DNA of 64,000 bases, from positions 1 to 64,000 of the forward strand of contig NZ_JAHLPV010000001.1 of NCBI RefSeq assembly GCF_018918095.1, in the 5' to 3' direction. Within the stretch, counting starts at the first letter, position 1. The number at the start of each line of letters is the position of its first letter. Source of the DNA: Acetivibrio sp. MSJd-27. GTDB taxonomy: Bacteria; Bacillota; Clostridia; UMGS1840; HGM11507. Under the pieces are notes generated by a model. That model had not been told where the DNA came from, made no database searches, and saw only the letters and a list, made by a program, of their open reading frames with translations. A program made the translations under genes and the position numbers. Below, one piece after another: positions 12,674 to 35,243 of the stretch.

Positions 12674-12977
12674 TATAAAATAAGGAAAATATAACATATT
12701 TTCTATTTTTATCCTATTTTCTTGGAATTATATTTTTGTTATTCCAAATAAATAGGATTGTATTCCTAAATTATAGTAATTCATTAAAATTTCTTGTTGA
12801 TTCTCTTTGAAAGGACTAAAAATTTTATTTATGATGATAGTATTTACAAAAAACCTATTTGACACTCTGTTCAAATAGGTTTTTAATAACATATGAATAA
12901 AATTTTTAAAGCAGATGAAAAGATGCCTATCTTTTCAATTTGATTTTATTATACCACATTTCTTTATAAATTACTAT
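12674..12977. other. AT-rich intergenic stretch with one terminator
   Basis: About 300 bases without a convincing frame. The only clear structure is the hairpin AAAAAACCTATTTGA (12848-12862) with TCAAATAGGTTTTT (12871-12884). It can end minus-strand transcription from the SPL-like gene 94 bases away. Nothing else is recognisable. Confidence 0.6.
12848..12884. terminator. Hairpin terminator downstream of the SPL-like gene
   Basis: 14-bp stem with an 8-base loop and T/A runs on both sides, so it is active in either direction. Confidence 0.75.
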
Positions 12978-23687: not shown

Positions 23688-23903
23688 TCATAATCTATCA
23701 TTTTTTCATCAGCAATTCCAACAAAAATAATTCGTATACATTTGCTGTAATCTGGCTTTTTGGTTAAATATAAAAAAGGTGTTGGTTCTGAAAAACACAA
23801 AAATGATTTTAATGAAACCAAAATACTGCCACGCTGTCAATAGTAACATCGGCACGGAAGTTCTGCGCGTACTCAAAACTTCGTTTTGACGGCAGATTTA
23901 TGA

Positions 23904-23968
23904 TATAATAACCTCACGAACCTCTAAGGCATTAAAAATGCCAAGAGTTTCGGAGAACGATTGAATCA
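23904..23968 (+). repeat. 65-base module 1 of the hairpin array
   Basis: TATAATAACCTC at the left, hairpin with the GGCATT-AAA-AATGCC top, then CGGAGAACGATTGAATCA. Differs from module 2 at a single base. Confidence 0.9.
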
Positions 23969-24007
23969 CAATACTGCGGCGACATTCCGCCGCCTTCGTT
24001 GTTGTGG

Positions 24008-24072
24008 TATAATAACCTCACGAACCTCTAAGGCATTAAAAATGCTAAGAGTTTCGGAGAACGATTGAATCA
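24008..24072 (+). repeat. 65-base module 2 of the hairpin array
   Basis: Same as module 1 apart from one C-to-T change in the stem (AATGCC to AATGCT, still G-U paired). 104 bases separate the module starts. Confidence 0.9.
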
Positions 24073-24105
24073 TACCACTCGCCACAATGCGGCTTGTGAC
24101 TATGG

Positions 24106-24166
24106 TATAATAAAAACACGCCGTAAGCGGAAGCAATCTTCCGACGGCTGAGTCTTTATTGAATCA
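24106..24166 (+). repeat. Divergent module 3 of the hairpin array
   Basis: Keeps the left TATAATAA and right TTGAATCA borders, but carries an unrelated hairpin (CGGAAG-CAAT-CTTCCG). Confidence 0.7.
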
Positions 24167-24237
24167 TCAATTTGTTTTGTTACACAAAACCCGGCTGTTG
24201 CCGGATTTTACTTGTGTAAAATAAATTGTGGTATAAC

Positions 24238-24280
24238 AAATGCCCGTCACTCACATTTTCTTATAAGTGACGGGCATTTT
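24238..24280. terminator. Bidirectional terminator between the hairpin array and malic enzyme gene
   Basis: AAATGCCCGTCACT (24238-24251) pairs perfectly with AGTGACGGGCATTT (24266-24279), T/A runs on both sides. Confidence 0.9.
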
Positions 24281-24307: not shown

Positions 24308-25480
24308 TTAGATTCTGGCTACGCCGGTATCTCTGGCAGCCTGTGCAACTGCTTCCGCAACTGCTTTGCCGACTCTTTCATCAAATGCATCCGGAATGAT
24401 ATAATCGGGTTCCAGTTCTTCCTCCGTGATCACGCCTGCGATCGCTTTTGCAGCGGCAATTTTCATTTCATCATTGATATCGCTTGCGCGAACATCCAAA
24501 GCACCGCGGAAAATGCCCGGGAATGCGAGGACATTGTTGATCTGGTTCGGGAAATCGGAACGTCCTGTTCCCATAATTTTTACGCCTGCTTCTTTTGCCA
24601 GGTCAGGCATAATTTCCGGAACCGGATTTGCCATTGCCAATACAATCGGATCTTTCGCCATTGTTTTTACCATTTCAGGAGTCAGCACGCCCGGAGCAGA
24701 TACACCGATAAATACGTCTGCGCCTTTGATAACATCTTCCAAATTGCCTTTTTTCAGCTGGAGATTCGAAATTTCAGCCATCTCTGTTTTGATTGCATTC
24801 AGATTGTCACGCCCTTTATAGATAGCACCCTTTGTGTCACAGAGCACAGCATTTTTCAGTCCCATTTTCATCAGAAGCTTTGTGATTGCAATCCCGGCTG
24901 CACCGGAACCATTCACTACAACTTCAATCTCATTGATGTTTTTACCAACAATTTTTAATGCATTCAACATCCCTGCCAATGTGACGACAGCGGTACCATG
25001 CTGATCGTCATGGAAAATCGGAATGTCACAGCATTCTTTCAATTTCTTTTCGATTTCAAAGCAGCGGGGAGCTGAAATATCCTCCAGATTTACGCCGCCG
25101 AAAGAACCGGCCAGTAATTTTACCGTGTTAACGATGTCGTCAACTTCTTTGGACCGAACGCAGAGCGGGAAAGCGTCAACATCTCCAAATTGCTTAAACA
25201 GTACGCATTTTCCTTCCATAACAGGCATGCCTGCTTCCGGACCGATATCCCCCAGCCCCAACACGGCAGTACCGTCGGTTACAACAGCAACCAGATTGTT
25301 TCTTCTTGTGTACTTGTAAGAAAGATCAACATCCTCACTGATTTTCAGACAGGGTTCTGCAACCCCAGGAGTGTAAGCAACAGCCAGATCGTCGCGGTTG
25401 TTCAGTTCCGCTCTGCTGACTACTTCGATTTTGCCATTCCACTCCTCATGTTTTTTTAGTGCAAATTCTTTCTTGTCCAT
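24308..25480 (-). CDS. NAD(P)-dependent malic enzyme
   Basis: About 390 residues, the short bacterial type without the phosphotransacetylase domain. Malic-enzyme parts are LAVAYTPGVAEPCLKI, VTDGTAVLGLGDIGPEAGMP, VMEGKCVLFKQFG, IFHDDQHGTAVVTLAG, the Rossmann VVNGSGAAGIAI and FPNQINNVLAFPGIFRGALD. It decarboxylates malate to pyruvate. ATG at 25480 follows GGAGGG by 7 bases. It lies 19 bases after the lactate/malate dehydrogenase-like gene on the same strand, so the two form an operon. Confidence 0.93.
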   Translation of the reverse strand: MDKKEFALKKHEEWNGKIEVVSRAELNNRDDLAVAYTPGVAEPCLKISEDVDLSYKYTRRNNLVAVVTDGTAVLGLGDIGPEAGMPVMEGKCVLFKQFGDVDAFPLCVRSKEVDDIVNTVKLLAGSFGGVNLEDISAPRCFEIEKKLKECCDIPIFHDDQHGTAVVTLAGMLNALKIVGKNINEIEVVVNGSGAAGIAITKLLMKMGLKNAVLCDTKGAIYKGRDNLNAIKTEMAEISNLQLKKGNLEDVIKGADVFIGVSAPGVLTPEMVKTMAKDPIVLAMANPVPEIMPDLAKEAGVKIMGTGRSDFPNQINNVLAFPGIFRGALDVRASDINDEMKIAAAKAIAGVITEEELEPDYIIPDAFDERVGKAVAEAVAQAARDTGVARI

Positions 25481-25499
25481 TATTAAGCCCTCCAACTTT

Positions 25500-35130: not shown

Positions 35131-35243
35131 GATGCAGCAGCGGGATGCGACATTTGCACCGCAAACCGTTTTTGAAAACCGTTCTTCGTTCAGCGGCAAC
35201 TCCCCGTCCGACTGACACTTTACGCGCAAACATCTACTCTGCT
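35131..35243 (-). promoter_or_regulatory. Tetrahydrofolate (THF) riboswitch, folT type
   Basis: On the minus strand the leader shows the class I THF riboswitch elements in order: GCAGAGTAGATG, GCGCGTAAAGTG, GGACGGGGAGTTGCCGCTGA, ACGAAGAACGG, then GCATCCCGCTGCTGCATC. It starts just after the folT promoter and is followed by a small hairpin (AAGAGGA/TCCTCTT, 35114-35128) and the folT ribosome-binding site. Control is probably at translation initiation, as no long terminator is visible. Confidence 0.93.

Follow-up and report, generated by a model that had tools for sequence, protein, structure and literature searches.

A tandem array of two-hairpin units

The window analyzed here, the whole 64,000-nt stretch of Acetivibrio sp. 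MSJd-27 to which the coordinates of the array, the terminator, and maeB refer, contains a tandem array of hairpins bounded by TATAAT boxes and closed by an intrinsic terminator that also serves the convergent gene maeB (Table 1). We consider it about 85% probable that the array is made up of three units and one further module of small, non-autonomous, modular mobile repeats that have TATAAT as their target. Each unit is laid out as TATAAT, AACC or a similar sequence, hairpin 1, a joint (G)GAGAAC..TTG, hairpin 2, and a further TATAAT, with a size of roughly 80–130 nt, and in the window the joints end in TTGAATCA. An earlier reading of this sequence (the original prediction) had described two modules differing at one base, a third with only its borders retained, a different hairpin in each gap, and a closing terminator, and all of these are borne out. 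The two near-identical modules, TATAATAACCTCACGAACC...GGAGAACGATTGAATCA, begin at the first and second boxes and are identical except for a single base, the third retains only TATAATA...TTGAATCA, the hairpin in each gap is distinct and its 3' arm reaches up to the following TATAAT, and the terminator is a perfect 14-bp inverted repeat followed by a T-run. The array extends further left than first described, by a type E module common to other loci, which is also found at L092 and L124 and has a 37-nt tail match at a third locus, L103. That modules start at TATAAT was correct, but TTGAATCA is not their end, since the boundary is again TATAAT and the unit runs to the next box. The proposal that TTGAATCA is the target is ruled out as well; it belongs to the joint between hairpins 1 and 2, is internal to the unit, and is missing from most relatives, and the target is instead TATAAT. 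The final bases of the joint AACGATTGAATCA form part of the hairpin 2 stem.

Table 1. Features of the array and its surroundings in the window
Feature	Position	Strand	Evidence or further occurrence
Left-most module, type E, hairpin-rich, ending GACGGCAGATTTATGA ahead of the first TATAAT	23789..23903	+	blastn, 82–86% to L092, L124
First TATAAT box (TGATATAAT); start of first near-identical module	23904..23909	+	Sequence reading
Unit 1 hairpin 1, type A	23913..23955	+	Covariance model R1 match 23901–24004, 109.8 bits; fold z -5.2; covariation
Joint AACGATTGAATCA between hairpins 1 and 2, containing TTGAATCA of the original prediction	23956..23968	+	Sequence; alignment A1
Unit 1 hairpin 2, type B2, CACAATACTGCGGCG..CGCCGCC..TTGTTGTGG	23965..24008	+	Alignment, structure, covariation
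Second TATAAT box (TGGTATAAT), where unit 1 ends and unit 2 begins; start of second near-identical module	24008..24013	+	Sequence reading
Unit 2 hairpin 1, type A, 1 base different from unit 1	24017..24059	+	Covariance model R1 match 24005–24114, 99 bits
Unit 2 hairpin 2, type B', ATACCACTCGCCACAATGCGGCTTGTGACTATGGTAT	24069..24108	+	B' also beside other left hairpins: L103, L106, L119
Third TATAAT box; start of third module	24106..24111	+	Sequence reading
Unit 3 hairpin 1, type C, ACACGCCGTAAGCGGAAG..CTTCCGACGGC, plus joint TATTGAATCA	24112..24164	+	L094, L112, L117, L118, L125; G167 units
Unit 3 hairpin 2, type D	24165..24231	+	L091, L094, L109
Final decayed box TATAAC, right end of array	24232..24237	+	Sequence; 4-copy family D2
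Intrinsic terminator, outside the repeat, common to convergent maeB	24238..24279	.	Inverted repeat I1
maeB, convergent	24308–25495	-	
THF riboswitch	35136–35243	-	82.1 bits

A dispersed family with conserved folding

The array is much more than a chance arrangement. A blastn search with it gave 47 matches in its own genome, and covariance model R1, built from 22 units, detected 50 units there at E ≤ 0.001 and 54 at E ≤ 0.05, distributed over about 40 sites. Alignments show that the hairpin types are joined in many combinations, with A, A', and C on the left and B1, B2, B', and D on the right. Ten 105-nt copies of one combination have a mean identity of 96.6%, two of them being identical, whereas identity over the 60 nt upstream of them is 51%, the level of unrelated sequence. 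Near-identical copies with unrelated flanks indicate that the copies in this genome have spread, probably recently. Many dispersed, near-identical, non-coding copies are also what is expected of an element resembling a miniature inverted-repeat transposable element (MITE). There are no clear terminal inverted repeats, the hairpins being internal to the unit.

Other box-bounded modules are found in the same setting. A different family that starts with TATAATAAAATCAAATTGAAAAGAT and has its own hairpin lies directly behind TGN-TATAAT at window positions 12940–12956 (minus strand) and at L092, L124, and L148, and a further module bounded by TATAAT or TATCAT (TGCACAGGGCATATTATACAGG.. and ..GTTGCTTTTATGGTATCATAA) lies beside type A units at L099, L100, L102, and L142.

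Both hairpins vary widely in sequence and retain their pairing. In alignment A1, 95.9% of cells are paired, and double changes are seen in 15 of 31 pairs (64 cells, compared with 19.1 in shuffles). For four of five covariation measures, no shuffle out of 500 reached the observed value, whereas the number of further pair types is not raised; all five drop when the pairing partners are slid. Hairpin 1 variants (n = 20, from 15 genomes), many with very unlike stems, have a similar shape and a mean fold z of -5.0. The border bases covary too, with CCTCAC..GAGAAC in most units and CCGCAC..GCGAAC in many G281 units. The covariation of both hairpins and the borders indicates that a folded single strand, of either RNA or DNA, is selected or used. 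The array has no match above the gathering score in Rfam 15, and at E ≤ 1 the only matches from six loci with relatives were a TPP riboswitch in another part of L177 and some below threshold. A conserved leader peptide starting from GGAG-N5-TTG was ruled out by inspection, as the reading frames differ among the types.

Placement at -10 boxes

The left box was examined at 37 first boxes of the window genome that have non-repeat flanks. A -35-like hexamer occurs at exactly 17 nt from these boxes, with a mean score of 0.88 compared with about -3 to -6 elsewhere, and the best -35 score at 16–18 nt is 2.44 compared with -1.55 (sd 0.48) in shuffled sequence, a value reached in 0 of 2000 shuffles. 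In the unrelated genus g119 the score at 25 sites is 1.18 compared with -1.56 (sd 0.57) when shuffled, again 0 of 2000, and 18 of these 25 sites have TGN-TATAAT. From this -35 spacing the left TATAAT is, as a rule, the predicted -10 box of an ordinary native promoter in two unrelated genera.

The next downstream gene is co-oriented at 34 of 39 sites in the window genome, as judged from simple open reading frame calls that may be wrong for some of the five exceptions. These genes are functionally mixed; dozens of carrier genes have leaders that consist of the units, including, with names assigned by reading, mraY, recA, trmFO, and a soj/parA-like gene. An effect on expression, through the long structured leader or the extra -10 boxes, is likely. 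A precise regulatory role is disfavored because the hairpins change freely.

Filled and empty sites in genus g119

Genus g119 comprises four genomes, of which G167 contains about 39 R1 units, G281 about 34, G774 three, and G775 none. The type C hairpin core of unit 3 in the window recurs among the G167 units. G167 and G281 are sister species with genes 91–97% identical, and their comparison gave five clean pairs of filled and empty orthologous sites. The filled allele has five units at L304/L351, seven at L305/L347 (the last decayed), two at L311/L346, two at L314/L355, and three at L321/L350. In all five pairs the empty allele has one TATAAT and the filled allele has one at each edge, the right-edge box of L311 being TATAAAT, followed by the same downstream sequence; in one example the empty site reads ATATGGTATAATAACTCGAAAACGG and the filled site ATATGGTATAATAACCGCAC.. 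on the left and ..AATGGTATAATGACTCGAAAATGG on the right. Such orthologous sites with a short target duplication, TATAA(T), are a second feature shared with MITE-like elements. At L311/L346 the more distant G774 is empty as well, which indicates that the element was gained in G167. In L311 the TATAAT that was used is not a promoter; read in frame (GTA TAA T), it is a gene's stop codon, so that the sequence rather than promoter activity is probably what is recognized. This one case supports the likely view that TATAAT as a sequence is the target and that promoters are struck because they are the place of TATAAT in non-coding DNA. All other G167/G281 pairs are filled in both genomes or ambiguous, with decayed remnants.

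Arrays at shared sites turn over. Seven array-bearing genes of G167 have arrays in G281 too (7/7), and at 13 of the 14 orthologous sites in G774 and G775 there is an ordinary single-box promoter without units, the sole exception being one decayed unit in G775. At the sites shared by G167 and G281, promoters are 80–98% and coding sequences 94–97% identical, and the first hairpin 1 unit is 69–90% identical with whole types swapped, for example CGGCG..AAAATC..GATTTT..CGCC for CGCCG..GGAAGC..GCTTCC..CGGC. Unit numbers differ as well, with two compared with four at L220 and six compared with about two at L177. Such turnover can result from the insertion of new units into boxes already present, from loss, from slippage, or from conversion.

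Distribution in other genomes

The original prediction had called for a search of related genomes. A pattern of its exact borders, run on 398 genomes of the phylum, matched G000 and G167 and no others; this pattern is too strict, and covariance model R1 detects relatives in 24 of 391 sampled Clostridia genomes, belonging to 20 genera. Nearly the same element is present in G055, G179, G326, and G154, and the same frame with other hairpins forms tandem arrays in G216, G017, G054, G167, and G281. One relative, in Ruminococcus sp. isolate HAN024, lies upstream of a malic enzyme gene (locus L051). A further branch, in G002, G003, G361, and G175, has the left junction ATAAG-AACCTCAC; copies with the sequence ATAAG-AACCTCAC..GGAGAACCTTG..CACAATAA are found at L173, L191, L174, L193, L178, and L183, several of them just ahead of terminator-like hairpins and possibly after stop codons. 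A repeat of roughly 250–300 bp at around 1476–1740 in L180, L181, L182, L184, L185, and L187 (G156, G176, G112, G358, G050, and G077) has inverted ends CGTGTCAAGTC/GACTTGACACG, is 76–95% identical across genomes of several families, and contains one two-hairpin unit. Plasmid and phage collections gave no match. Among virus contigs there were 12 matches to a 17-base border, none of which is a unit by the covariance model, and 40 matches to a border-pair pattern were judged to be chance because most look like coding sequence.

Search for a mobilizing enzyme

The Y1 transposase (PF01797) is absent from 9 of the 19 carriers examined (G167, G281, G002, G054, G154, G326, G341, G175, and G375), and none of the Y1 gene flanks that were inspected contained a unit. 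The IS110 DEDD transposase (PF01548) was found in none of G167, G281, G774, and G002. The absence of both argues against Y1 and IS110 transposases as mobilizers in G167 and G281. No autonomous partner was found among these two families, other recombinase families not having been searched. IS200-type Y1 transposase copies with the hairpin AACCACCAGC..GCTGGTGGTT are present at contig ends of G000 (L136–L140); most lie directly behind terminator-like T-runs, and the assembly breaks inside the copies.

Interpretation and alternative explanations

The reading as mobile repeats is carried by the dispersal of the copies, the filled and empty sites, the single orientation, the placement at -10 boxes, the conserved structure, and the turnover of hairpins. 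In the mechanism that we propose, a gene-free two-hairpin unit would insert at TATAAT in a single orientation, carrying its own TATAAT at its end, so that the native box would remain on the left and TGN-TATAAT would be regenerated on the right. As intergenic TATAAT is mostly a -10 box, units would land in promoters and the downstream gene would retain a promoter-like box. Each right-end box would itself be a target, leading to head-to-tail stacking, and slippage and recombination among near-identical units would alter the unit count and exchange hairpins. Movement would probably occur in trans, through an enzyme recognizing the single strand in its folded form beside TATAA|T.

Several observations weigh against this reading. 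No transposase is linked to the units, with Y1 and IS110, the only families searched, absent from G167 and G281. In G281 units are present at every one of the seven G167 sites, a pattern that old sites kept over time would explain as well as fresh mobility, and the presence and absence of units could partly reflect precise loss through recombination between two TATAAT boxes. The window array has no co-oriented downstream gene and is a true exception, as it ends in a terminator. Relatives of the G002/G003 type have the ATAAG left junction and are, at least in some cases, near gene 3' ends and not at promoters. That the units form a separate class of mobile element, namely gene-free two-hairpin cassettes that have their TATAAT target restored on both sides, stack, exchange hairpins, and are driven by an undescribed enzyme that is neither Y1 HUH nor IS110, is a tentative proposal with the odds against it.

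One possible though not favored alternative is a 5'-leader maintained by the host, in which a structured RNA (a 5' stabilizing hairpin, an attenuator, or a multi-start promoter) is selected for its effect on the gene and has spread by duplication and gene conversion. The units begin just upstream of the expected transcription start with their hairpins in the gene sense, pairing is strictly conserved, and the sites are retained between G167 and G281 at all seven loci, where coding identity is 94–97%. A selected leader is difficult to reconcile with the free divergence of hairpins at one and the same promoter in the two sister species, variable unit numbers, orthologous promoters of congeners without units, the insertion at a stop-codon TATAAT, and the mixed functions of the downstream genes.

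The original prediction offered tandem palindromic mobile elements of the IS200/IS605 kind as one of its two readings. The mobile part of this claim holds, from the dispersed copies and the filled and empty sites, whereas membership of IS200/IS605 is not shown, and the idea may describe how the repeat works rather than what it is. Passive elements of this type would have hairpin ends cut as single strands at TATAA by TnpA acting in trans. The units resemble such elements in being gene-free, in their single orientation, in their imperfect left and right subterminal hairpins, and in the short sequence, a putative cleavage sequence, that the left flank shares with the right end (as seen from alignment A1, the structure, and the junctions), without long terminal inverted repeats, and IS200-type copies are present in G000. 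These copies have another end hairpin and sit after T-runs, no units were found near Y1 genes, and the Y1 transposase expected in the host is lacking from nine carriers including the unit-rich G167 and G281, making this explanation rather unlikely.

Site-specific recombination of small circles at a TATAAT core, by a tyrosine or serine recombinase including the chromosomal Xer, would account for the identical core at both ends, the single orientation, the precise empty sites, and the tandem, exchangeable units. We regard it as improbable, since by eye there are no symmetric arm sites around TATAAT (recombinase genes not having been searched) and the hairpin covariation would be unexpected if duplex DNA alone were read. 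Very unlikely is the other reading of the original prediction, a tandem series of small RNA genes that share promoters and have exchangeable ends. In its favor, a TGN-TATAAT start box is present in every unit, and the window array closes with a terminator and is not followed by a co-oriented gene. Against it, protein-coding genes follow the units at most other sites, no Rfam family matches, there is no conserved promoter-to-terminator unit, and the hairpin sequences lack the conservation expected of small RNA seeds.

A mobile repeat that prefers to land on a -10 box and restores the box at its own end would represent promoter invasion without obvious gene silencing. Promoter annotation and expression work in the carrier Clostridia will meet leaders composed of the units, the filled and empty pairs provide a ready test for the mobilizer, and the swapping of hairpins at sites that stay in place offers a natural record of how repeats have recombined with one another.

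Comparison with known systems

REP/BIME palindromes, associated with RAYT or IS200/IS605 Y1 transposases, are gene-free, moved in trans, hairpin-ended, and arranged in clusters of units. The Clostridia units are likewise gene-free, hairpin-ended, clustered, and probably moved in trans, and differ in that several rich carriers have no Y1, in the TATAAT target, and in having two unlike hairpins in fixed order. The IS110 family with its bridge RNA combines sequence-specific insertion with a structured RNA from the element ends. Insertion of the Clostridia units is also sequence-specific, and RNA from their ends would be structured too; unlike IS110 elements they are gene-free, and PF01548 is absent from G167, G281, and G002. 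Correia and other promoter-forming MITEs are, like the Clostridia units, small non-autonomous repeats that supply genes with promoter parts; they create promoters at their ends, whereas for the Clostridia units the -10 box itself is targeted and restored. Promoters have been described for Correia elements (PMC3049150). BOX elements of Streptococcus pneumoniae and S. suis are short modular stem-loop repeats with many intergenic copies that are co-transcribed with genes, have a variable number of modules in various combinations, and have an uncertain mobilizer (PMC3049150). No description of a repeat family such as the present one was found in a literature search limited to open-licence papers. 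BOX is the nearest in architecture, with modular stem-loops, a variable module number, and transcription, as compared by description only and not through the boxA, boxB, and boxC sequences. The Clostridia repeat is a new family of this known general kind, set apart from BOX in that its units target TATAAT or the -10 box and each ends in a new TATAAT, they swap hairpins at orthologous sites, and their frame spans many Clostridia families.
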